Below are positions 7,455 through 54,699 of a DNA stretch of 56,748 nucleotides, in pieces. The notes below the pieces were generated by a model that saw only the letters and a program-made list of their open reading frames with translations, had not been told where the DNA came from and did no database searches. Position numbers and translations under genes: made by a program. Location of the stretch: assembly GCA_029865385.1 (NCBI GenBank), contig JAOUGX010000015.1:1-56748 (forward strand), given 5' to 3'. Source of the stretch: Gammaproteobacteria bacterium. Lineage in GTDB: Bacteria > Pseudomonadota > Gammaproteobacteria > Steroidobacterales > Woeseiaceae. Each line of letters starts with the position of its first letter. The stretch's first letter is position 1.

Positions 7455-10400
7455 ATGAACGCATCCCCTGCGACCCGGACCCAGGGCTACCCGCTGGACA
7501 ACTACGAACTGGAGGACCGATACCGGCGCGAGTCCGGCCGCGTATTCCTGACCGGCACGCAGGCGCTGGTACGCATCCCGCTGATGCAAAGGACCCTGGA
7601 CCGGGCGGCGGGATTGAATACGGCGGGTTTCGTCAGCGGTTACCGCGGCTCGCCACTCGGCGCCTATGACCAGGAGCTGTGGCGTGCGAAAAGATTTCTT
7701 GCGGAAAGCAACATCGAGTTCCTGCCAGCGGTTAACGAAGACCTCGCGGCAACGGCGATTCTCGGCACGCAACAGGTCGAGTCCGAGCCGGGCCGGACAG
7801 TCGATGGCGTATTCAGCATCTGGTACGGCAAAGGGCCCGGCGTGGACCGCGCCGGTGATGCGCTGAAACACGGCAACGCGTATGGCAGCTCGCCGCACGG
7901 CGGCGTGCTGGTCGTCGCCGGCGACGACCACGGTTGCGTGTCGTCGTCGATGCCACACCAGTCCGATGTTGCGTTTCTCGCCTGGCTGATGCCGCACCTG
8001 AATCCGGCGAGCGTTGCGGAATACCTCGAGTTCGGCCTGTACGGCATAGCACTGTCGCGCTTTTCGGGCATGTGGGTCGGGTTCAAGGCAATATCCGAGA
8101 CCGTGGAATCCGCAATGTCTGTCGAACTGCCGCCCTATCCCGAGTTCGTGGTACCGGCGGACTTCAAGGCGCCGCCGGACGGCCTACACATTCGCTGGCC
8201 GGACTTTCCCGGTCCGCAGATCGAAGAACGCCTTGAAGCCAAGAAAGCGGCGACGCTGGCGTTCGCCGCGGCCAATCCGATCGATCGCAAGATTTTCAAC
8301 ACGGCAAATGCGCGCTACGGCATCGTCACAACGGGCAAAGCCCATCTCGACCTGATGGAGGCATTGCGCTTGCTCGGAATCGACGAGCGCGAAGCACGAC
8401 GCATAGGGCTCGACGTGTACAAGGTCGGTCTCGTCTGGCCGCTCGCGCATGATTCGGCGCTGGATTTCGTTCGCGACAAGCACGAGGTACTGGTCGTCGA
8501 GGAGAAGCGCGGCATTATCGAAAGCCAGTTCAAGGAATACTTTTACGACTATCCGGGCCGCAAGCCGAAACGAATGATCGGTAAGGAAGACGAGATTGGC
8601 CAACGGCTCGTGCCCTGGGTCGGCGAATTGTCGCCGGTGCAGCTTGCCGGAATTGTCGCGAAGCGACTGGACGGCGCAATCACGGGACTCGACTTGCGCT
8701 CACGCGCCGACAAGCTCGTCTCCGGTGAATCGAACGTCATTCGCATCGACGGTGCGTCGCGCACACCGTATTTCTGCTCGGGTTGCCCGCACAACACATC
8801 GACGCGATTGCCGGAAGGTTCCAAAGCGCTGGCCGGCATCGGTTGCCACTTCATGGCCAACTGGATGGATCGCGACACGGATGGTCTTATCCAGATGGGC
8901 GGCGAAGGAATCAACTGGATCACACGCTCGATGTTCAGCGGCGGCAAGCACGCATTCCAGAACCTGGGTGATGGAACTTTCTACCATTCCGGTTCGCTGG
9001 CGATCCGCCAGGCAATCGCCGCGAAAACCAATATCACTTACAAAATCCTTTACAACGATGCGGTCGCAATGACCGGCGGTCAGCCGGTCGACGGGCCGAT
9101 CAGTGTCCAGTCCATCGCGCACTCGGTACGCGCGGAAGGCGTGCAGCGCATTGCCCTGGTCTCGGACGAACCGGAACAGTTCAAAGCACGGGAGTTTCCT
9201 GCAGGGACCACCATTTCGCATCGCCGCGACCTCGACGCCGTGCAGCGCGAATTGCGCGACATTCCCGGCGTAACCGTGCTGATTTATGCGCAGACCTGTG
9301 CGACGGAAAAACGCCGTCGGCGCAAACGCGGCAAGTTGAAAGATCCTGATCGTATTGCCGTCATCAACGACCTCGTCTGCGAGGGCTGTGGCGATTGCTC
9401 GGTCGAATCGAACTGCCTTTCCGTGATCCCCAAGGAAACGCCATTCGGCCGCAAGCGGCAGATTGACCAGAACACCTGTAACAAGGACTTCTCGTGCGTC
9501 AATGGCTTCTGCCCCAGCTTCGTCACGGTCGAGGGCATAAAGTCGAAAGCCGCAAACACCAGCAGCGGCGGCGAATTCCCCTATGAGCGACTCTCGGCGA
9601 TCGCCGGGCCGCAACTGCCGTCCCTGGCAGAAGGCTACGACCTGATGGTCACCGGCGTCGGAGGCACCGGCGTGGTCACCGTCGGCGCACTGATCACGAT
9701 GGCAGCCCATCTCGAGGGAAAAGGTGCCAGCGTGCTCGACTTCATGGGTTTCGCGCAGAAGTTCGGCCCGGTGTTGAGCTACATCCGGATCGCCGGCGAA
9801 CCTGCCCAATTGAACCAGGTGCGAATCGACCTGCAACAGGCCGACGCACTGATCGGTTGCGATCTCGTCGTCAGCTCGTCTCCCAAAGCCTCGAAAACCT
9901 ATCGCCCGGGTCATACCAAAGCCGTGATTAACACGACGGAAATGTCGACAGCGGACTTCGTGCGCCATCGTGATGCGTCGCTGCGGGCCGGCGATCGTAT
10001 TGCTGCAATCGAACAGGTCGTCGGCAAGCACAATCTCTCGGCCGTAGCGGCCAATCGCATCGCCGAAAAGCTGCTCGGCAATACGATTTACTCGAACGTC
10101 CTGATGCTCGGCTACGCGTGGCAGAAAGGCCTGGTTCCAGTGTCATTGCCGGCGATGCTGCGCGCCATCGAACTGAACGGCGTGGAAGTCGAGCGCAACA
10201 GAGAGGCGTTTGGCTGGGGCCGTATTGCGGCCGGGGACGAAGAGTTTCTGAAGCTGCGCATGGACGAAGGGCAATCGGCCGAGTTCCGCGAAGAGACGCT
10301 CGACGACATCGTTTCCCGTCGATCCGATTTCCTCAAGGACTACCAGGATGAGGCCCTGGCGAAGAAATTCACGATGCTGATTGCCAAAGTTCGCGAAGCG

Positions 10401-44578: not shown

Positions 44579-46822
44579 TCAATTGAAAACATCGAAAATG
44601 TGGCTGTACTTGAGGATGATCTCGCGGCCGGTTGGCGGCGCGCCGATGCCGCGTTCGTCTACTTCATTGTAAACCAGGTAAAAACCGGAGTTTGCCGACT
44701 GCAGCCAGGAGAAACGCAGGTTGGCTGCAAGGACTTCACTGAGTTCGTTGTATTGCACCAGTGCCTGTACCAGGATTTTAGGTGTGAATGAATACGAAAG
44801 CCTGAGCCGCGCGAGGTTGGCTTCAAACTGGCCGCCCGGCACAGGCAAGTCGAAATCGTTGTAGACGTAGGATATTTCGGAACTGAAGGTTTCGCCGATT
44901 CTGTAACGAACGGTCGGCGTCAGCGAGACGCGATCGCCGCCGAAACGGCCGCCAATGACGGACTCGAGTGTGAGGCTGAGCGGCGCGCCCTGGTTGGTAT
45001 TGAACCGCAGCTGCGCTTCGGTGTGATCGTAGGTGCCTGGCTGAATGGTCACGCCGGGAACGATGTCGAATGGGTCTTTGACACCGGAACGCGTGAAGTT
45101 GACGCCGGTGTCTACGCGATAACCGCTCCTGAACTCCCAGTGCACGTCGTTGTGCCAGAAACCCGTTTCCTGGAAGTCGTCGAAATCCCAGAAGCCGGTG
45201 TATGAAGAGTGCGGCCTGATTTCGAGCAGACCCCAGAGATTGTCCGGCCGAATGCGCCGCATGAGGAATCCCTCAACGCGCTGGTATTCGGTTCGCGAAA
45301 GGAATCCGACTTCCGGGTTGAAGTCGCCGCCGACTTCCGTGTAGTTCAGTCGATAAGCCCAGGTTGCCGAGTCGTAGTCGGCCTTGACGGCAAACGCATC
45401 GTCGCGACCGTCGCGACCCGGCGTTGCGGTTTTTGCCGCCCAGCCCGACAGGACCAGGTTGTCACCGATGCCCCAGCGGCCGTCGATCGAATAGGTTTGA
45501 TTCTCGTCGTCCTGTGGCGCGACGAGGTAACTGCCGTCGCCATTGCGATTGATGACCATTACACCGATCGACGAACGGCTGGGCAGTTCCTGGTTTACCC
45601 GCGCGACAGTGAACTGGTTGCCCGGCGCAATACCCGCGGCGGCTTCGGAACTCATATAGAGAAGGCCCACATTGGTGCTGTTGCCGACCTTGCCCGAAAG
45701 GCGCACGCCGCCATCGATCGGTATCTGCTCGCCGTCTTCGGCAATACCGATACGACGGCTGAAGAACAGCTCGACCTGCTCCGGATTTCCAACCGTGAAC
45801 TGTCCCGCATTCTCGAGGAAGAACGGACGTTTTTCCGGCAGGAACAGGCTGAATCGGTCCAGGTTGACCTGCTGTTCGTCGACCTCGACCTGGGCGAAAT
45901 CCGTGTTGTAAGTAGCGTCGAAAGTGAGGCTCGGCGTAATCGAATACTTTAAGTCGAAACCAAACTCGGTGTCGTTTTGCGTATCGACCAGATTGCCGCC
46001 GCGTGCCGTCTTGCCCAGCACGTACGGCGTCACCTTCAGATTGCGTTGAACGGGTGCTGCGACGCCACTGATCGTGCCTGCCTCGGACACGCGGTACAGG
46101 TTTCGCTCGCGCGACAGCGGCGCCCAGTACGCGATCTCGTTGTTGCGCCGGATATTGCGCTGAAAGTTGATGCCCCAGGTCTGGCTATCGCCCTTGCCGT
46201 AACGCAGGGTGCGAAACGGAATGCGGAATTCCGCGCTCCAGCCGATCTCGGAAATGCTCGCCGCGACGTCCCAGGTCCCGTCCCAGTTCAGGTTAAATCC
46301 GCCGCCACCGGAACCGAACTGGCCGGCGCCTTCGCGTACCACCTGACCGTCGTATTCGAGTCCGGCCGGGCTGGTGCCGAACACATAGCCGTTTTGCCTG
46401 TCCAGCAAACCGTCGATGACGATCTGGAAGCTGTCGGTTTCTTCAAGATCGGAATCGCGACGGCTGTCCGCGACGATGATTCCCTCCGGCTGCGAGTCGT
46501 AAGCGACCACGCCGACGTACAACGCGTCTTTCAGGTATGCGATGAATACTTCGGTTTTTTGTGTCGCTGGCCGTCCATCGTCCGGACGAACCTGCCAGAA
46601 TCCGCTCGCCGGTTGTATGCCTTCCCACGCGGAGTCTCCCAGCACCCTGCCGTCAAGAACCGGCGCCGCGGTAAGTTCACCAGCCTGCATGGTCGGCCGC
46701 TGCCCCGGTGCAGTCTGTGCCTGGGCGGCGGAGAAAGGCAATAACAGTGTTGCAACGCCAACGGACCCGAAAAATCTGCGAGCCAGGCGGTCCCTCGACC
46801 GCGGGATCAAAAGATATGACAT
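44579..46822 (-). CDS. CBM9 / DUF5916 outer-membrane-type protein
   Basis: 747 residues from the ATG at 46822; an in-frame TTG at 46834 overlaps the upstream stop as TTGA. Signal peptide ending AQAQT (about residue 38). The N-terminal CBM9-like domain (about 45-220) has EGIQPASGFWQVRPDDGRPATQKTEVFIAYL (seen in part: FWQVRPDDGRPATQKTEVFI) and the ADSRRDSDLEETDSF patch. The DUF5916 barrel follows, with the signature EKRPFFLENAGQF near 335, and ends in aromatic-rich strands. Such proteins occur next to peptidases and may take up or bind the hydrolysis products. Role inferred. Confidence 0.85.
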   Translation of the reverse strand: MSYLLIPRSRDRLARRFFGSVGVATLLLPFSAAQAQTAPGQRPTMQAGELTAAPVLDGRVLGDSAWEGIQPASGFWQVRPDDGRPATQKTEVFIAYLKDALYVGVVAYDSQPEGIIVADSRRDSDLEETDSFQIVIDGLLDRQNGYVFGTSPAGLEYDGQVVREGAGQFGSGGGGFNLNWDGTWDVAASISEIGWSAEFRIPFRTLRYGKGDSQTWGINFQRNIRRNNEIAYWAPLSRERNLYRVSEAGTISGVAAPVQRNLKVTPYVLGKTARGGNLVDTQNDTEFGFDLKYSITPSLTFDATYNTDFAQVEVDEQQVNLDRFSLFLPEKRPFFLENAGQFTVGNPEQVELFFSRRIGIAEDGEQIPIDGGVRLSGKVGNSTNVGLLYMSSEAAAGIAPGNQFTVARVNQELPSRSSIGVMVINRNGDGSYLVAPQDDENQTYSIDGRWGIGDNLVLSGWAAKTATPGRDGRDDAFAVKADYDSATWAYRLNYTEVGGDFNPEVGFLSRTEYQRVEGFLMRRIRPDNLWGLLEIRPHSSYTGFWDFDDFQETGFWHNDVHWEFRSGYRVDTGVNFTRSGVKDPFDIVPGVTIQPGTYDHTEAQLRFNTNQGAPLSLTLESVIGGRFGGDRVSLTPTVRYRIGETFSSEISYVYNDFDLPVPGGQFEANLARLRLSYSFTPKILVQALVQYNELSEVLAANLRFSWLQSANSGFYLVYNEVDERGIGAPPTGREIILKYSHIFDVFN

Positions 46823-46830
46823 GGAATCGA

Positions 46831-47832
46831 TCAACCCGTTTTCAGTCTGTCGCTGTAGCCGAACAGACCGGCCGAACCGCCGGTATGTATGAACAGCAGA
46901 TTGTCCTTCTTGTTGAATTGCCTTTTTGCTACCAGGTCGATCATGCCGGCGAGTGCCTTGCCACTATATACCGGATCGAACAGCAATCCTTCCAGCCGCG
47001 CGAGCAGCAACAGGGCCTCGTTCATACCCTCGGTCGGTATGCCATAGCCGTCGCCTATGTAGTTGCAGTCCGCGACGATGTCCCTGCGCTCGACCGTGCC
47101 CGCGGCACCGACGTACGCGGCCGTTTCGACGGCCAGCTTGAACACCCGCTCTTCCTGGATGTCTTTCGGCGCATTCACGCCGATACCGAGGAGCGGGATA
47201 CCCGAATTCGTGCCTTTGAGTCCGACGATCAGTCCTGCCTGGGTACCGGCGCTGCCGGTCGCATGAATGACATGATCGATGCGAAGCCCCGTCCGATTGG
47301 CCTGTGTCATGAACTCGTGCGCGCAATCCACGTATCCCAGCGCGCCGACCTTGTTCGATCCGCCACCCGGAATGACGTATGGGAGCTCGCCCTTTTTCGC
47401 CAGTTCCACAGCAACCGCTTCCAATGCGGCGTTCATGTCGGAGCCTTTCTCGACTTCTCGAATACGCGCTCCGTAGATTCGGTCGAGGAAGACGTTACCG
47501 GATTTCACGTAAGGCTCGCTGGGCCTGTCGACCCGTTTCTCGAAGACCAGTTCGCATTTCATGCCGAGCTTGCAGGCCGCAGCGGCCGTCTGCCGCGCAT
47601 GATTGGACTGCACGGCCCCTTGCGTCACGACCACGGTCGCCTTTTTCTGCAGCGCCTCTGCCATCAGGAATTCCAGTTTGCGGGTCTTGTTACCGCCGGT
47701 TCCGAGCCCGGTACAGTCGTCGCGCTTGACGAAGATATTCGGCCCGCCGAGATGCTTGCTAAGGCGCGGCAGCGGTTCGAGCGGCGTCGGCAGGTGTGCC
47801 AGTGAGACGCGCGGAAATCGGGATAACAGCAC
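46831..47832 (-). CDS. D-cysteine desulfhydrase / ACC deaminase-like PLP enzyme
   Basis: 333 residues. I take the GTG at 47832, six bases after AGGAG; an earlier TTG is too close to that site. Fold-type II PLP enzyme: the catalytic lysine is in [22 protein letters not shown] (the core is [10 protein letters not shown], Lys near residue 49), then [20 protein letters not shown] and [19 protein letters not shown], and [12 protein letters not shown] near the C-terminus. Relatives act on D-cysteine, chloro-D-alanine, L-cysteate or 1-aminocyclopropane carboxylate. Which of these applies is not readable. Confidence 0.87.
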
Positions 47833-47861
47833 AATCAACTCCTCTCGGGCTCAGGCCCTTG

Positions 47862-48557
47862 TCAATCAATCGCAAGGGCGACCGTGCGCCTTGCAAGTAC
47901 CTCGGTGGACGAGATGAACGGCACATCGAGATCAGCGCTTCCCAGCACAAGCGGAATCTCGGTGCAACCGGCCACGATGACGTCGGCGTCCTGCGCCATG
48001 AGTTCCGTCGCAATGCGCCGCATCGATCTTCGCACTCCGGTACCTTTGTCGCCGCGCTTGATGCGGAATATCAGTTCCATAAGCTCGAATTGTGTTTTTT
48101 CCTCCGGCAGCAAGCAGCGCCTGCCGGTCGCTGCAATAGCAGACTGGTAGCCTTCGGATTGCACGCAGGCGATCGTAGCCAAAACGCCGACCTTTTTCGA
48201 CGCGGGTTGCAACTTCGCGATTTCGCCGACAGTCTCGTCAATAATGTGCACGAAGGGAACGTGAATTGCTGCGATAACATCGTTCAGGAACGCGTGTGCC
48301 GTGTTGCACGGCATCACGAGAAAATCGGCGCCGGCCGCCTCGAGGCGCAAACACATATCGATCAATGTGCCGACGACCGCCGAGCGGTCGCCGCGCAAAG
48401 CCTCCTGCCGGTCCGGTACCTGCGGATTGTGATCGACTATCATGCGGATGTGATCCTGATCCCTTTTTGCCGGCGTCAGCGCAATGACCGAGGCCATGAA
48501 GTCGACAGTGGCATCCGGCCCCATGCCACCCAGTACGCCCACCGTCTTGCCCTTCAA
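47862..48557 (-). CDS. Aspartate/glutamate racemase
   Basis: 231 residues from a TTG at 48557, GGAG eight bases upstream (MKGKTVGVLGGMGPDATVDF). An upstream in-frame TTG at 48617 overlaps the M28 stop but adds non-family residues. Both catalytic cysteines are present: Cys84 in VMPCNTAH and Cys198 in AGCTEIPLV. Interconverts L- and D-aspartate or glutamate without cofactor. Next to a PLP enzyme acting on D-amino acids and in the same operon as the peptidases. Confidence 0.9.
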   Translation of the reverse strand: MKGKTVGVLGGMGPDATVDFMASVIALTPAKRDQDHIRMIVDHNPQVPDRQEALRGDRSAVVGTLIDMCLRLEAAGADFLVMPCNTAHAFLNDVIAAIHVPFVHIIDETVGEIAKLQPASKKVGVLATIACVQSEGYQSAIAATGRRCLLPEEKTQFELMELIFRIKRGDKGTGVRRSMRRIATELMAQDADVIVAGCTEIPLVLGSADLDVPFISSTEVLARRTVALAID

Positions 48558-48613
48558 ATTTCGAACTCCGCTGTGAAATACCGTTGCCGGATATGGTGTC
48601 CAGAGGATAGCAC

Positions 48614-50641
48614 TCAATCGACCGGGTTAATGACGCCGATGGAGTGCAGCGCTTCCAGGTATTCGGCGACTGTTTCCACCGGCACCGGACCGAGTTCAGC
48701 GGTCAGCCAGTCGCGGATTTCTGAGACCGTGCGCTTGCCGTCGACAAAGTTCAGCGCTTCGTAAACGTATTCGCCGCCGCTGCCATGCGAGCCCGCGTAT
48801 TTCGGCAGACGGAGCTGCGCGTACCTGTCCGCACCGTAGCGATCTTCCATGTAATCGAATCCGAAGCCGCTCATCGGGCCTGGAATCTTCGGATCGCGCC
48901 GATAAACCGTGTCGTTGGTCGACGCATGCGCCGCGGCGGGCCTGGCCACCAGTGCCTCCAGGCGGGCAACGAAATCGGCCGCTTCGTCGTGCAGTCTTTC
49001 CGCTAGCGGCGCGAAAGATTCGACGCTGTGGATTTTGCGTCGTTCGACGGTAAAGTGAACGCGAGCGACCGCCGATTTGTCAGCCGGCTCCAGCGGCTTC
49101 AGGCGCTCCACGAGTTCGGCGCTGCGGTAAAGTGCATTCTTGCGCAGCATCGCGAGCACTGCCGGAACGTGCTCGTTCGAGAAGCCCGCGAGAAACAATG
49201 CGTTCACGGCGCCGATGAAGGCAGCGCGCTTCAACTTGGTGGGGTCGATCATCGCTGCCGTGTCGAAGTTCGTGTGAATGTAGCGATCGGGCCAGTCGTG
49301 CAGGTACAGCCCGGGGATTCGCCAGCTGCCCTCGCGAAACACATCGTGGTCGCTGCCCATGTCGAGTCCTTCCATCAGCGCGAGCTGTGGTTCCTTGCCG
49401 CCCTCCGTGGCAATCAAGGGAAACGCAACGTCTGCGCCGCCGGCGAACGCTTCGCTTTGTTCATTGACGAAACGACCGACCTCGAAGCCCAGATCGCTGA
49501 TGAAGGTCGGCAGGCTGATCGGGCCGCCGGATATCCGGAACACCGCTTTTGTTTCCGGTCCCCCGCCAACCATGTCCATGTGGATGTTGGCTTTGATGAG
49601 CGACGGCTCTTTGTGCTGCGAGAGAAAAATGATGCTGCCTTCGATTTCGGCCGGCCAAAGGAATCGTATCGAGCGCGCGGGACGCAGCAGCGTGCCTTCA
49701 TCGATCAATTTGTTCAGCGTGCGCGCGACTTCGAGAATAGAGACACAACCGGAAGCGTTGTCATTGGCACCCGGCCGCGGGTGATCGAGGTGACAGGTGA
49801 ACAGGATTTCCTCGGCCGACTTCTGCGGGTCCGCTCCTTTTATTCTCGCCGTGGCAAACCTGTAGTGCCCCCGTTCGTGAGTGGCATCGACCTTGCCGTG
49901 CAGCAGGATCTGTTCGCCTCCGGCCATGCGTTCCTGCAGCCGACGTGCTTCGCCGAGTGAAACCATGAAGGCGAATGTTTTTGTTTTTGGAAAACTGCTG
50001 AGATGCCCCCAACGCACCAGCCGGTCGTCTTGCTTCCACCATGCGGATCGCTGGTTCGCCGCATAGGAAACTATGCCGGCTGCACCGAGCTCACCAACCG
50101 CGCGCTCGACGACAATCTCCGGCTGACTCGAGGTCAGCACGAATTTGCCGCGGACATCCTTGCCCGCGTAGTCGGCATCGGCAGTGCCGCCGCCGATATC
50201 GACCAGCATCGTCGTCGCTTCGCCCGACAGGCTGTCCTGCGCGAGGCTCAAAGGTACCGCTTCCCAACTCGCCAGCCGGCGGCTCCGCGTTCTTTGGCCG
50301 CCGTCGTCCTTCAATTCCCACAGCTCGGCGAAATTGACCTTCCATACCGGCCGCGATTTCTGCGTACCGAACATCGTCTTGCCGTCGGCCGCGTATTCGA
50401 GCGTCGACACTTCGTCGAGCCCGTAGGATTCGAGCTTGCGCAGGATGTGCGAGGTCGCATCATCGAACTGGCTGCTGGCGCGCATGCGATGCTGCAGCGT
50501 CAGTGTATCGAGATTCCGTTTCGCTTCTTCCCCGGAAGTTTCCTCGGCAATCTGTTTCAGGACCGCTTCCGGCACCAGCTCGCGGATATCGGCAACAGCC
50601 GGTCCGGCCAGCAACAGGGCGATGACAAGCATTCGCAACAT
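48614..50641 (-). CDS. Secreted M28-family zinc peptidase with PA domain
   Basis: 675 residues; ATG at 50641. Signal peptide MLRMLVIALLLAGPAVADI. A PA-like insert (GKDVRGKFVLTSSQPE, GELGAAGIVSYAANQ) precedes the metallopeptidase core: the zinc ligands are in FTCHLDHPRPGANDNASGC, the catalytic carboxylate in WPAEIEGS, further ligands in IHMDMVGG and GSDHDVF. The C-terminal 100 residues include GYEYVYEALNFVDGKRTVSEIRDWL-like sequence (part: YVYEALNFVDGKRTVSEI). Periplasmic or secreted aminopeptidase. Twenty-one bases after the M24 stop. Confidence 0.9.
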   Translation of the reverse strand: MLRMLVIALLLAGPAVADIRELVPEAVLKQIAEETSGEEAKRNLDTLTLQHRMRASSQFDDATSHILRKLESYGLDEVSTLEYAADGKTMFGTQKSRPVWKVNFAELWELKDDGGQRTRSRRLASWEAVPLSLAQDSLSGEATTMLVDIGGGTADADYAGKDVRGKFVLTSSQPEIVVERAVGELGAAGIVSYAANQRSAWWKQDDRLVRWGHLSSFPKTKTFAFMVSLGEARRLQERMAGGEQILLHGKVDATHERGHYRFATARIKGADPQKSAEEILFTCHLDHPRPGANDNASGCVSILEVARTLNKLIDEGTLLRPARSIRFLWPAEIEGSIIFLSQHKEPSLIKANIHMDMVGGGPETKAVFRISGGPISLPTFISDLGFEVGRFVNEQSEAFAGGADVAFPLIATEGGKEPQLALMEGLDMGSDHDVFREGSWRIPGLYLHDWPDRYIHTNFDTAAMIDPTKLKRAAFIGAVNALFLAGFSNEHVPAVLAMLRKNALYRSAELVERLKPLEPADKSAVARVHFTVERRKIHSVESFAPLAERLHDEAADFVARLEALVARPAAAHASTNDTVYRRDPKIPGPMSGFGFDYMEDRYGADRYAQLRLPKYAGSHGSGGEYVYEALNFVDGKRTVSEIRDWLTAELGPVPVETVAEYLEALHSIGVINPVD

Positions 50642-50662: not shown

Positions 50663-52006
50663 TTATTGCGTGGCCGGCACGCGCGGAATCAGGTGAAAGG
50701 CTTTCTGACGCCCGTCGATGTACCAGGTTTTTTCGCCGTCGAAAAAGGCGTCTTCCTCCAGGCTGATCCGCACCGCCTTGCCCCAGGCTGCGACTTCCGT
50801 CTCGGCATACAGTTCGATCGAGTACGCGGTATCCGGGTACATCGGGTAGTCGCCGTTGCCGGGCACGCCCTGCTGCTGGTCCCACATGCCGATGGTCGGG
50901 CCGGCCGCGTGACCGTGATAGCCGATCGGATGGGTATAGATCGAAGCAACGATGCCTTCTTTCTTTGCCTGTGCGAGCGACTGCGCAAGGATATCGTTGC
51001 CGGTGCGCCCGGTGACGAATCGGGAGGTCAGGATATCCTGCAGCCGGTTGCCGCGTTCCAGTGCGCGCTTCAGTTCTTTCGGCGCGTCTGATTCGCCGGG
51101 CCTCAATACGTATGCGTGCTGCTGGGTATCCGTGTTCAGGCGAAGATAGGTAATGCCGAAGTCAACGTGAATCAGGTCGCCTGGAAGTATGACGACATCG
51201 TCATCTTGCGATTCGATCGCGGTTTTCATGTCGACCACCGCCTGCTCGGCACGCTGCACCGACACCGAGGGATGGAACCATGTCGTCAGCTTGAGCTCGC
51301 GGATTCGCTCCCGGTACCACCAGGAAACATCGTTTGTGGTCGTGATACCAGGCTGTATGACGGCTTCCGACAGGCCTTCTGCAAGAATCTCGTGCGCAAT
51401 ACGGCAGATCTGCGGGTAGATCTGCATTTCTTCCGCACTGCGGGTTTCCAGCCAGCCAATCGCAATGTTTTCCGCCGACACCACGCGCGCCTGTAACTCG
51501 GGTGTCAGCACCTCCATCAGCTTCCCGTACTCGGTGTGGCTGATGCCGTCGGCCAGCGCGAAATTGTCCGAGGTGTTGACAGCGATTTTTTTCGGCTGGC
51601 GTTCGGCGATCAGTTTGCCCAGATGCTGCCACTGCTCACCGTCCTGTTCCCGATCCCAGGCTTTCTTGAACGTATCGCCAACGGCGTAACGAGACACCGC
51701 AAGCGTTTCCAGCGGCTGACCTTCTGCCGAATCGTAAATGAGCAGGATGGTGGTTCGTCTCGCCGCATGCCAGGTCGACGGCAGGAAAGTGCGAATGACG
51801 GGGTCCTCGTTGTATTCGCGCGAAATGATCAGCCACATGTCGATGTCGCTGCGGCGCATGATTCCCGGCAATACACTTTGCACGCGGCCTGCGAGCACAT
51901 TGTCTATTACCTCGGCGCGTTCACGCATCGACAGGATTTTTGGGTCGGCCATCGCTGTGCCCGCAATGGCCAGGACAATTGCAAGCATTGCCAGTCTGAA
52001 TTTCAT
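50663..52006 (-). CDS. Secreted M24-family (Xaa-Pro aminopeptidase-like) metallopeptidase
   Basis: 447 residues; ATG at 52006. Signal peptide to about residue 21 (TAMADP). N-terminal creatinase-like domain, then the pita-bread fold with five metal-ligand positions: Asp in LIHVDFGITY, Asp in LNTDTQQ, His in HPIGYHGHAAGP, Glu in SIELYAE and Glu in ISLEEDAFF. Most family members cleave X-Pro bonds or act on methylated or cyclic peptides. Secretion is unusual for Xaa-Pro aminopeptidases, and fits the extracellular peptide-processing reading of this cluster. Confidence 0.88.
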   Translation of the reverse strand: MKFRLAMLAIVLAIAGTAMADPKILSMRERAEVIDNVLAGRVQSVLPGIMRRSDIDMWLIISREYNEDPVIRTFLPSTWHAARRTTILLIYDSAEGQPLETLAVSRYAVGDTFKKAWDREQDGEQWQHLGKLIAERQPKKIAVNTSDNFALADGISHTEYGKLMEVLTPELQARVVSAENIAIGWLETRSAEEMQIYPQICRIAHEILAEGLSEAVIQPGITTTNDVSWWYRERIRELKLTTWFHPSVSVQRAEQAVVDMKTAIESQDDDVVILPGDLIHVDFGITYLRLNTDTQQHAYVLRPGESDAPKELKRALERGNRLQDILTSRFVTGRTGNDILAQSLAQAKKEGIVASIYTHPIGYHGHAAGPTIGMWDQQQGVPGNGDYPMYPDTAYSIELYAETEVAAWGKAVRISLEEDAFFDGEKTWYIDGRQKAFHLIPRVPATQ

Positions 52007-52051: not shown

Positions 52052-52921
52052 TTAAGGAGACAGGTCCGCATAAGCAGCCCGCAGCAACTCTTCGGGGCTG
52101 CCGATTCGTGTCGCGCTGGCCCAACGCGGGTCGTATTCGGCCGTGAGGCCGGCTTTCTGTGTCTGCTCAAGGGTCATTCCCGCCGCGATGCTGGTGATGA
52201 CGCGATCCCGAATGATCAGCAGCATGTCGCGCACGGCGCGCACTTCAGCGACGTTCGACACGACCCCGTGACCCGGAATGATCCTGGTCTTGCTGTCCGA
52301 AACTTCGATCAATAGATCCAGCGCTTTGATGGTTCCGAGGAAACTGCCGCCGTTGGCCACGTCGATGTAAGGATAGGTTGTCGTGCGATAGACGTCACCC
52401 GTATGTATCACATTGGCGGCCATGAACCGTATGAAAGAATCGCCGTTGGTGTGTGCATCCGGCGTTTTGAACACATGCACCGTATCGCCATTGATGTGAA
52501 AGCGGATGTCTTCGCTGAATGTCACCAGCGGCGGCTCTTCGGCGTAATCACTCAACGCCATCTGGATACGGACGTTGTCGTGGCCGAAGATTGTCGCACC
52601 TAGTTTGCCGAAATTTTCGTTGCCTCCGGTGTGATCGGGATGCATGTGGGTATTTATGAGGAAGCGCACGGGTTTGTCCGTCAATTTGCCGATGGCGGCC
52701 ACGATTTTCCCGGTGAGCGGCGCATACTGGTCGTCTATCAGAAAGACGCCGTCATCGCCGATGAAAAGCCCCATATTGCCGCCGCTGCCCTCGATGTAGG
52801 ACACGTTGCCCGAAACCGGGTGGACGATCATTTCGACCGGTTTGAAATCCTGGGCCCCGACCAATGTCGACAGCGGCAGCGCCAACAACATCAAGGACTT
52901 GCATGAAATGCGTCTGAACAT
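52052..52921 (-). CDS. Secreted MBL-fold metallo-hydrolase
   Basis: 289 residues; ATG at 52921. Signal peptide to about residue 23 (LVGAQD). Metallo-beta-lactamase motifs: NTHMHPDHTGGNE (near 91), TPDAHTNGD (near 156), IHTGDVYR (near 173) and IIPGHGVV (near 216). The GNMGLFIGDDGVFLIDDQYAP start is common to a periplasmic subgroup whose substrate is unknown; some are lactonases or quorum quenching enzymes, others act on thioesters. First gene of the long minus-strand unit. Confidence 0.87.
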   Translation of the reverse strand: MFRRISCKSLMLLALPLSTLVGAQDFKPVEMIVHPVSGNVSYIEGSGGNMGLFIGDDGVFLIDDQYAPLTGKIVAAIGKLTDKPVRFLINTHMHPDHTGGNENFGKLGATIFGHDNVRIQMALSDYAEEPPLVTFSEDIRFHINGDTVHVFKTPDAHTNGDSFIRFMAANVIHTGDVYRTTTYPYIDVANGGSFLGTIKALDLLIEVSDSKTRIIPGHGVVSNVAEVRAVRDMLLIIRDRVITSIAAGMTLEQTQKAGLTAEYDPRWASATRIGSPEELLRAAYADLSP

Positions 52922-53083: not shown

Positions 53084-54049
53084 GTGCGTATTTTTTTCGT
53101 ATCCATTCTGCTGGCTGTTTTCGCATTACCCGGAACGGCGTTCTGCGCGAACAAGGTCAAGGTCGATGTCATCAAGCAGCCCTATGGCGGTTCGCGCAAC
53201 GTCGATGAGATATCAATGAACCCGGATTACATTCACGCCGCAGGGCTCGAGCGCCTTATCGCGGAATGGGGCGGCGAGCTGATACGCCCGGTACAGGATG
53301 TCCGCCTGACGGCGGAACAGGACAAGCAGTACGGAACCTGGAATCGCATGGCACTGGCCAACGCGAACATGGCCGACATCGTGCGCGAAGGACTGCAGGA
53401 CGACCTGCTGACGGTTGGCCTGGAAGCCAACTGCAATGTCTTGCTCGGTATGCTCGGCGGCCTCAAGTACGACTCCGACGGCAACGCCCGGCGCGTCGGC
53501 CTGGTTTTCATCGACGCGCACGGCGATTTCAATGTGCCGGAAACCACCTTGTCCGGAATGCTGGGCGGCATGCCGGTCGCGGTTGCGGCCGGTCATGCGC
53601 TGCACAATATTCGCAGGACTTCCGGCCTGACCGAGGGACTGCCGATGAGCGACATCGTGTGGGGCGGTGTGCGAGACCTCGATCCGCTGGAAGCCGAACG
53701 GTTTCGCGAGTACGAGGTGCAGCAGTTTTCGGTCGAGGATATTCGCAAGCTCTCGGGCAACCTGAAAAAGCAGATGGACACGCTGTCGGCAAATGTCGAC
53801 GTGATCTACGTTCACATCGACATGGACGTACTCGATCCCGATGAAGTACCCGGGCACGGCCTGCGCGTGGCGAACGGGCCGACCAGCGAAGAGCTCGCGG
53901 CCGCGATGACGCTGATGTTCAAATACGCGAAAAGCGTTGCGATAGGCATTGCATCCACACCTGCGGGACCGCTTGATCCAAACGGTGTCAGCCGCCAGGC
54001 GGCGTTGAACCTGATCGAAGGTGCGATCAGGGGCGTCCAGGCACGATGA
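53084..54049 (+). CDS. Secreted arginase/ureohydrolase-fold protein with altered metal site
   Basis: 321 residues from a GTG at 53084. Signal peptide MRIFFVSILLAVFALPGTAF then CA. The arginase fold is clear: DAHGD at residues 144-148 and HIDMDVLDP at 244-252 supply four of the usual ligands. The first ligand motif, GGDHS in true arginases, reads GLEANCNVLLG (residues 112-122), so the His is gone. One or no metal may be bound. Related 'arginase family' proteins with GNC or GDC here exist. A secreted form is odd, as arginases act in the cytoplasm. Its stop overlaps the next start (ATGA). Confidence 0.82.
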   Translation: MRIFFVSILLAVFALPGTAFCANKVKVDVIKQPYGGSRNVDEISMNPDYIHAAGLERLIAEWGGELIRPVQDVRLTAEQDKQYGTWNRMALANANMADIVREGLQDDLLTVGLEANCNVLLGMLGGLKYDSDGNARRVGLVFIDAHGDFNVPETTLSGMLGGMPVAVAAGHALHNIRRTSGLTEGLPMSDIVWGGVRDLDPLEAERFREYEVQQFSVEDIRKLSGNLKKQMDTLSANVDVIYVHIDMDVLDPDEVPGHGLRVANGPTSEELAAAMTLMFKYAKSVAIGIASTPAGPLDPNGVSRQAALNLIEGAIRGVQAR

Positions 54050-54558
54050 TCCGCATCGCGCTCGCGACGCTGGCACTGACTGCAGCGCCGGCACTGGCAG
54101 ACTCGCCAGCGGAAAACTGGTCACTGGAAGTCGGCAAGGATCCTGTTTCCTGGGAAAACGTCGCTACGTTGACGACGGAATCCAGCATTGAGATTGCGAA
54201 CGAGTACGCAACGAAGCAGGTTCGTCCGCTGCTGATTTTCCAGTGCAGGCCGGGCGGTGACGGAAGCGTATCCGTACGCGTTGACTGGCAACGATTCATC
54301 TCCTCGTTCAACACCGAAGTCGGCTTCAAGGCAGATGAAAAGGATTTGCTGCTGGTCAACTGGGGCGTCGACAAATCGAACAGGATCACGCAGCCTCGCG
54401 GCGCAAGCGACAGCCGCGAGTTGCTCGCGTACCTGAAAGGAGCAATCCGCCTGCAGGTCGAAGTCATCCCCTATTCCGCAAGCCTGTTGAGCGTGAACTT
54501 CGACGTTTCGGGAATCGATACGGCGCTTGCAACGTTGATTGCAAAGTGCAGCGGTTAA
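54046..54558 (+). CDS. Small secreted TagO/VasI-like protein
   Basis: 170 residues; ATG at 54046 overlaps the arginase-like stop. Signal peptide to about residue 19 (PALADS). Two cysteines (near 66 and 168) could form a disulfide. The pattern LLIFQCRPGGDGSVSVRVDWQRF, then IPYSASLLSVNFDVSGIDTALATLIAKC, follows the type VI secretion-associated TagO/VasI fold. No other type VI gene is nearby, so the similarity is to the fold only. Role unknown; overlap suggests it works with the arginase-fold protein. Confidence 0.55.
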   Translation: MIRIALATLALTAAPALADSPAENWSLEVGKDPVSWENVATLTTESSIEIANEYATKQVRPLLIFQCRPGGDGSVSVRVDWQRFISSFNTEVGFKADEKDLLLVNWGVDKSNRITQPRGASDSRELLAYLKGAIRLQVEVIPYSASLLSVNFDVSGIDTALATLIAKCSG

Positions 54559-54582
54559 GTCGCCTGCAGTGCAGGCTCCTAC
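54559..54582 (-). repeat. REP-type palindrome copy 1
   Basis: GTCGCCTGC...GCAGGCTCCTAC, reverse of the element at 6493-6516. Begins at the stop codon of the preceding gene (TAA ends at 54558). Confidence 0.85.
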
Positions 54583-54605
54583 AATGATGCGGTTCTTGGC
54601 ACCGG

Positions 54606-54629
54606 GTCGCCTGCCATGCAGGCTCCTAC
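54606..54629 (-). repeat. REP-type palindrome copy 2
   Basis: Same orientation as copy 1, one central base different. A shortened, degraded third copy (GTCGCCTGC then GCTAC, missing about four bases) follows at 54639-54658. Confidence 0.85.
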
Positions 54630-54638
54630 AAGGGCAGG

Positions 54639-54658
54639 GTCGCCTGCAATGCTGCTAC
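54639..54658 (-). repeat. Degraded REP-type copy 3
   Basis: GTCGCCTGCAATGC then GCTAC: the right arm has lost several bases, so the hairpin would be weaker than in the other copies. Confidence 0.6.
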
Positions 54659-54665
54659 TGGCGCT

Positions 54666-54689
54666 GTAGGAGCCTGCATGGCAGGCGAC
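54666..54689 (+). repeat. REP-type palindrome copy 4, inverted
   Basis: GTAGGAGCCTGC...GCAGGCGAC, opposite to copies 1 to 3. Head-to-head placement with copy 2/3 forms a larger cruciform-capable unit just before the FNR stop at 54700. Confidence 0.85.
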
Positions 54690-54699
54690 CCCTTTTGGC

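Follow-up and report, generated by a model that had tools for sequence, protein, structure and literature searches.

The gene at positions 53084–54049 of the stretch of DNA analysed here (56,748 nucleotides, contig JAOUGX010000015.1 from a gammaproteobacterium of the family Woeseiaceae; hereafter the window) encodes a protein of the arginase fold that carries a signal peptide and has a Cys in the place of a metal-binding His. The locus raises the question of whether an exported arginase-fold protein lacking this His can still be an enzyme and, if so, which kind of bond it would cleave. The first-pass annotation had proposed half a metal site, a dedicated TagO-like partner encoded by the adjoining gene, and either a new activity or a binding function.

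Export signal and family of the arginase-fold protein

The open reading frame begins with GTG and encodes 321 residues:

53084..54049, forward strand: putative secreted Cys-type arginase-fold hydrolase (open reading frame, Pfam, alignment, fold model)
53084..53149, forward strand: signal peptide, approximately residues 1–22, cleavage placed by eye (start-rule control)

The product matches the Pfam arginase family PF00491 with 81.1 bits (E value 1.3e-22; gathering cut-off 22). Its score against the arginase profile TIGR01229 is 112.7 bits, about half of the equivalog cut-off of 227.6, and against the agmatinase profile it reaches 27.6 bits, the cut-off being 174.3. The structure predicted with a 58-row alignment as input has a mean pLDDT of 92.6, and its residues 25–320 superpose on the arginase of Bacillus caldovelox (PDB: 2CEV) with a Z score of 33.5 (281 residues, 2.8 Å, 22% identity). 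That the best PDB neighbours, by sequence as well as by fold, are arginases would speak for an ordinary arginase or agmatinase that is merely exported; the low profile scores and the loss of two of the three family motifs, along with His141 and Glu277 of arginase, make this explanation very improbable.

Four arginase-family matches are present in the window's genome, and the genomes of other phyla tested hold two to four in all (9 of 9). Because each of these nine has at least one further match, the ordinary duty of the family may be covered elsewhere in the genome. In the plasmid collection 198 records match the 321-residue protein, none at 60% identity or more; the 20 matches listed either bear the name arginase or arginase family protein or lack an annotation.

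Since the initial choice of start codons favoured hydrophobic starts, a single start-choosing rule was also run on other arginase-family rows as a control. With this rule a hydrophobic stretch precedes the core in 82 of 87 clade rows, which include duplicate loci from the same genomes, versus 1 of 37 other rows. The five clade rows failing the rule comprise two from Bathyarchaeota, two from Gemmatimonadota in which the stretch is weaker, and a paralogue that is truncated. The signal peptide of the first-pass annotation is borne out by this difference, and a mis-called start, which would have spoken against it, is judged unlikely. In the alignment used below, the bacterial members have a signal-like N-terminal stretch, which is weaker in L036 and L037 and lipoprotein-like in L034 and L037; the signal peptide is absent in both Bathyarchaeota members.

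The genome-contig scan revealed 65 loci related to the window protein, along with four distant archaeal hits. The hosts of the clade are Woeseiaceae, other Gammaproteobacteria, Gemmatimonadota, Acidobacteriota, Planctomycetota, Candidatus Aminicenantes, Saprospiraceae and Bathyarchaeota. The alignment of the clade contains 57 full-length loci and the window protein, four truncated loci and two degenerate second copies having been left out. In a 296-genome sample of the window's order, a match at an E value below 1e-60 occurs in 22 genomes, all within its own family group (f1), and when 398 genomes from across the phylum were compared, that of the window alone reached this level, the next best value being 7.0e-37. 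Together with the members in other phyla, this pattern of occurrence would fit a putative lateral arrival in Woeseiaceae. Among the papers listed in a literature search that took in few subscription papers and no bioRxiv preprints, none could be recognised as dealing with the secreted clade or with the structure of DcsB.

Two Longimicrobiales-type loci (L054:3828–4880 and L055:1–873, forward strand) carry a tandem second copy beside the intact arginase-type gene. In these second copies the metal motifs are broken (SERGD or SERAD; HVDLN or HVDVS), and the intact and degenerate copies recall the active/inactive pair MetCa/MetCb.

The active site and its relation to DcsB

The positions on which the argument rests are the following:

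53432..53434, forward strand: codon of Cys117, at the position of arginase His101, a metal A ligand; invariant in 58 of 58 rows (alignments)
53513..53527, forward strand: DAHGD, residues 144–148, with Asp144, His146 and Asp148 at metal ligand positions (alignment)
53564..53566, forward strand: codon of Gly161, at the position of the arginase proton-shuttle His141 (alignment)
53813..53827, forward strand: HIDMD, residues 244–248, with His244 at the place of arginase Ser230 and with Asp246 and Asp248 at metal ligand positions (alignment)
53954..53956, forward strand: codon of Ser291, at the position of arginase Glu277, the guanidinium contact (alignment)

The arginase residue numbers and roles employed here are in part those in general use. 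Among the three motifs of arginase, DAHxD is kept as DAHGD; GGDHS, which includes the His ligand of metal A, is replaced by LEANCN, with the Cys present in 58 of 58 rows; and SxDxDxxDP reads HIDMDVLDP, with the His likewise present in 58 of 58. The first-pass annotation had read these segments correctly, with GLEANCNV at residues 112–119 in place of GGDHS and with DAHGD and DMD (residues 246–248) retained. The other part of the residue numbers and roles was taken from PMC9475637 and PMC10028609.

Twelve residues of the window protein, Cys117, Asp144, His146, Asp148, Asn150, Ser157, Gly161, Asp200, Glu203, His244, Asp246 and Asp248, are invariant in all 58 rows, which span six bacterial phyla and Bathyarchaeota and extend down to 39% identity to the window protein. 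The equivalents of Asn130, Ser137, Asp183 and Glu186 of arginase are thereby retained in the secreted clade, while position 291 is occupied by Ser, Thr, Ala or Gly throughout the 58 rows. As compared with arginase itself (EC 3.5.3.1; TIGR01229; PDB: 2CEV), the window protein shares the fold, DAHxD, the four Asp and one His at ligand positions, and the Asn130, Asp183 and Glu186 equivalents, but it is exported and does not keep GGDHS, SxDxDxxDP, His141, Thr246 or Glu277.

These changes occur together. In a comparison set of 97 rows (69 Cys-type and 28 His-type arginase-family rows), the letters at the His101, Ser230 and His141 positions are Cys/His/Gly in 60, Cys/His/Asp in 9 and His/Ser/His in 28, with no mixed row, so that His at position 244 and Gly or Asp at position 161 accompany the Cys in 69 of 69 rows and are found in none of the 28 His-type rows. 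Glu277 and Thr246 occur in all 28 His-type rows; among the 69 Cys-type rows the former is absent and the latter is found once. The other five metal ligand positions are kept in 97 of 97 rows, the Asn130, Asp183 and Glu186 equivalents in 69 of 69 Cys-type rows, and Ser137 in 58 of 58 rows of the secreted clade. As the five ligand positions are kept throughout and mixed rows are absent, the site seems to have been re-set as a unit rather than half lost.

A precedent for such a site is DcsB (PDB: 6LUG), an N-omega-hydroxy-L-arginine amidinohydrolase, which was matched by the DcsB-like protein of L139 with an E value of 3.2e-51. The primary structure of 6LUG has Cys86 at the His101 place, Gly126 at that of His141, His196 at that of Ser230, and Glu241 at that of Glu277. 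The combination that typifies the Cys-type site, i.e., Cys at His101, His at Ser230 and a residue other than His at His141, is thus found in DcsB as well as in 58 of 58 clade rows. According to the DcsB structure paper, the active-site Cys reportedly binds one of the two Mn ions. All four Asp and the His126 equivalent are also common to DcsB, of which 6LUH and 7EUK are further entries, and the clade. Two further entries deposited as DcsB have other letters: 7EUL has His and Ser at the places of Cys86 and His196, and 7EUQ has in addition Asn and His at those of Tyr124 and Gly126. We read both, from their residues, as DcsB variants made arginase-like.

With a Cys at the place of the His ligand, a His on the strand that bears two of the Asp ligands, and the same letters in DcsB, a two-metal site would be expected in the window protein. 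The half metal site proposed earlier does not agree with this conservation, as only one of the six ligand positions differs from arginase, and there Cys117 is invariant and DcsB has the same letter. A His ligand elsewhere in the same pocket, which would speak against the earlier proposal, may exist, since His244 fits by its sequence position.

In an unrooted tree of 73 rows including DcsB, a branch with support 99/98, recovered in 99% of 200 bootstrap trees, separates the 47 Cys-type rows from the rest; since long branches were flagged and no root is set, the Cys-type may be either the derived or the older state. The 26 rows of the secreted clade are grouped with support 100/99. DcsB lies on the same side of the 99/98 branch but groups with L139, L140 and L143 at 100/100, apart from the secreted clade. 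It differs from the clade also in having Tyr at the Asn139 place and in keeping Glu at the Glu277 place, where the window protein has Ser291, and its printed chain (residues 5–264) begins in the core with no sign of the export signal that characterizes the clade.

Conservation and ancestry bear on two alternatives. The first is that the window protein has the activity of DcsB itself, i.e., the periplasmic hydrolysis of N-omega-hydroxy-L-arginine or of a similar compound such as canavanine. The identical Cys/Gly/His letters and the retained residues for the amino-acid head group would be in keeping with it; all 58 clade rows, on the other hand, have Ser, Thr, Ala or Gly where DcsB has Glu241, and DcsB lies in a different subclade (100/100), which renders it unlikely. 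The second is that the protein is a pseudoenzyme or binds a ligand in the periplasm without catalysis, possibly in concert with the IalB-like protein described below. His101, His141 and Glu277 of arginase are indeed absent, a degenerate tandem paralogue with broken metal motifs occurs in L054 and L055, and MetCb is described as an arginase-fold pseudoenzyme subunit (PMC11271267). According to the same source, three to five of the six ligands are mutated in MetCb-type proteins, while only one of six is substituted here, which led us to reject an assignment to that type. Across the 58 rows, even at 39% identity, the five other ligand positions do not vary; the Cys is likewise invariant and has a solved precedent in DcsB. 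A half-site or pseudoenzyme was therefore also rejected as first choice and is regarded as improbable. The window protein is probably a working hydrolase rather than a broken enzyme, as judged from its residues and from the analogy with DcsB.

The peptide arginase OspR provides a further comparison. Like the window protein it is an atypical member of the fold, both lacking His141 and having Ser at the Glu277 place, and yet it cuts arginine residues (PMC10028609). In the same source, peptide arginases are RiPP maturases that keep the His ligand within the motif EEH(N/H)EAF. As the window protein has LEANCN instead, an identity with OspR was rejected.

Cys-type sites are not confined to these two branches. 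Six further Cys-type rows (L141, L142 and L144–L147) lack the equivalents of Asn130 and Asp183, and a Cys-type subfamily with the segment GGDCTILLG (L141:1456–2382 and L142:1734–2642, forward strand; L145:1797–2804, reverse strand) has Asn for the His126 ligand (DGNAD). The Cys alone, therefore, does not guarantee the rest of the site, these six rows being without the two equivalents and three with Asn at His126. At L130:9678–10514 (forward strand) and L132, approximately 8580–9355 (reverse strand), a Cys-type arginase-fold gene lacking a signal peptide directly follows hisA, with hisB and hisH near, these names being our reading of the translations. The Cys-type proteins encoded beside hisA in the window's phylum (L107, L102 and relatives) share with the window protein the NC motif, HxDxD, and the lack of His141 and Glu277, but they differ in having Phe at the Asn139 place and Asp at the His141 place, and no signal peptide was found in them.

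Neighbouring genes

The genes surrounding the arginase-type gene include several predicted secreted proteins:

54046..54558, forward strand: secreted IalB-like two-cysteine protein of 170 residues, lineage-specific neighbour (fold match, Pfam, locus survey)
52052..52921, reverse strand: secreted metallo-beta-lactamase-fold protein, divergent; near the gene in at least 10 of 29 Woeseiaceae-type loci (profile matches, locus survey)
50663..52006, reverse strand: secreted M24 peptidase-family protein; near the gene in at least 10 of 29 Woeseiaceae-type loci (Pfam, locus survey)
48614..50641, reverse strand: secreted M28 peptidase of 675 residues; near the gene in at least 11 of 29 Woeseiaceae-type loci (Pfam, locus survey)

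The flanks of the 29 loci differ in length, and the counts for M28, M24 and the metallo-beta-lactamase-fold protein are lower bounds for that reason.

The stop codon of the arginase-type gene (TGA, 54047–54049) overlaps the ATG of the downstream frame (54046–54048) as ATGA, as had been described, and all 12 rows of the downstream protein have its two Cys residues, C67 and C168. Its predicted structure (pLDDT 86.8) matches the invasion-associated locus B protein IalB (PDB: 3DTD) with a Z score of 12.4 over 137 aligned residues at 3.8 Å (Foldseek E value 7.4e-5). The Pfam family IalB is matched weakly by 8 of 12 members (E values up to 1, best 5.9e-5), whereas the window's own copy has no Pfam match up to an E value of 5. 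No TagO/VasI match was found in Pfam (window copy to E 5; 12 members to E 1), nor was such an entry among the 50 matches listed in either of two structure searches. In view of the fold match the name TagO-like is replaced by IalB-like, although a relationship to TagO may still exist.

Homologues of this protein are encoded downstream of the arginase-type gene in 13 of 26 Woeseiaceae-type loci with downstream sequence, at distances of 0.9 and 1.4 kb in two of them; a fourteenth, L154 (the same as L078), has only a 39-residue remnant. A search of the loci from other phyla detected no homologue. Of 147 genomes of the order, 6 contain the protein. Five of these six carry the arginase-type gene as well; the sixth, G096, has no match to the arginase-type protein. 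These occurrences do not agree with a dedicated partner, and the exported, IalB-like protein is better described as an optional neighbour. Between its gene and the next (54559–54694) a 26-nucleotide repeat occurs four times (identity to the first copy 100, 92, 62 and 62%), together with a 34-nucleotide inverted pair that is 91% complementary; the region resembles a REP-type element.

Upstream, the divergent orientation noted earlier is confirmed by the gene at 52052–52921 on the reverse strand. A secreted M20 gene lies within 100 nucleotides upstream on the same strand in 12 of 29 distinct Woeseiaceae-type loci, distances being taken between open-frame ends; an Amidohydro_3 gene is directly upstream in 3 and neither of the two in 14. 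None of the 11 neighbour genes probed is present in 10 of the 29. All four M20 members tested belong to M20_dimer by Pfam, and one exceeds the cut-off of the amidohydrolase profile TIGR01891 (188.5 bits versus 153.75). In the window itself the M20 gene was not seen, while the metallo-beta-lactamase-fold, M24 and M28 genes are present, followed beyond M28 on the same strand by genes for CuyB, CuyA and an S58 peptidase.

Outside this family, 3 of 5 Aminicenantes loci have, next to the arginase-type gene but on the other strand, an M28 gene with 27–31% identity to that of the window. The scan of neighbours in other phyla covered 139 of 147 proteins from 32 loci; it gave matches to Amidohydro_1 (7), Amidohydro_3 (7; the two may overlap) and M28 (4), with 146 families matched in all and the neighbours mostly unrelated. 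The association with peptidases is strong within a part of one family, recurs in a second phylum, and is weak in the others.

Several neighbours were noted in their own right. At 46831–48617 on the reverse strand, CuyA (D-cysteate sulfo-lyase; NF052482, 520.9 bits versus a cut-off of 450) and CuyB (cysteate racemase; NF052483, 266.2 bits versus 190) are encoded by adjoining genes, that of CuyB overlapping the M28 peptidase gene, and the two form a cysteate-degradation pair inside the peptidase cluster. CuyB homologues are near the gene in only 3 of 29 loci, and a functional link is not claimed. The C-terminal end of the M28 peptidase (48614–50641, reverse strand) resembles a PqqD-type domain, none being found in Pfam at an E value of 0.001. 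An unexpected neighbour in common with L055 is a DUF5916 protein, encoded in the window at 44579–46834 on the reverse strand; in L055 a relative with 32% identity adjoins the arginase-type gene.

The proposed activity and its meaning

A deacylase-like hydrolase could also account for the M20 gene that immediately precedes the arginase-type gene in 12 of 29 loci and for the missing guanidinium contact; it would use the fold as histone deacetylases do, on N-acyl or amide-linked amino acids in a step beside M20. Deacetylases of the arginase fold work with one metal ion, the ligands of metal A having been lost. The window protein keeps both Asp148 and Asp246, and a deacylase is accordingly rated as a poor candidate.

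Sequence, fold model and the analogy with DcsB lead us to consider it rather likely that the window protein belongs to the Cys-type (DcsB-type) branch as an exported hydrolase with two metals, acting on an amino-acid-like substrate that has no guanidinium group. An amino-acid-like substrate of this kind is suggested by the retention of the metal ligands and of the residues holding the alpha-amino and carboxylate groups, together with the loss of Glu277, which DcsB keeps as Glu. In the proposed mechanism, Cys117 would replace His as a ligand of metal A, Asp144 and Asp246 would bridge the metals, and His146 and Asp248 would hold metal B. The metal-bridging hydroxide would attack a C–N bond, as in arginase and DcsB, with the head group of an alpha-amino acid held as in arginase; because the residues gripping the guanidinium are gone, the group cleaved would lack it. 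The head-group residues do not prove an amino-acid substrate, as the same residues are present in the Cys-type proteins encoded beside hisA, and a guanidino substrate may still be accepted, since OspR, with Ser at the Glu277 place, cuts arginine residues (PMC10028609). The probable site of action is the periplasm, beside the secreted M20 amidohydrolase and the M28 and M24 peptidases, where amide-type groups might be removed from amino acids or small peptides for uptake as food. The earlier choice between a new activity and a binding protein thus holds in part: the protein is exported, is no ordinary arginase, and is likely to have a different activity, whereas the half site on which that choice was based finds no support in the invariant ligand positions.

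The precedent of DcsB largely explains the surprise of an arginase without its His. The Cys-type active site being already known from that enzyme, what is new is the exported variant in at least six bacterial phyla. We tentatively suggest that this widespread exported family of the arginase fold, with its site re-wired (His to Cys, Ser to His, His to Gly, Glu to Ser), could cut a non-guanidinium C–N bond in extracytoplasmic amino-acid conjugates, together with secreted M20 and M28/M24 enzymes, and so constitute a new form of extracellular nitrogen scavenging. A site known from one enzyme of an antibiotic pathway (DcsB, D-cycloserine) occurs in several branches of the fold, and five active-site positions differ together between the secreted branch and ordinary arginases. 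A name transferred from the nearest solved relatives would be arginase, which is probably wrong in activity. If found, the substrate would add an extracellular nitrogen-release enzyme to the bacteria of sediment and soil, and the comparison with DcsB would then show which of the five positions sets the substrate.
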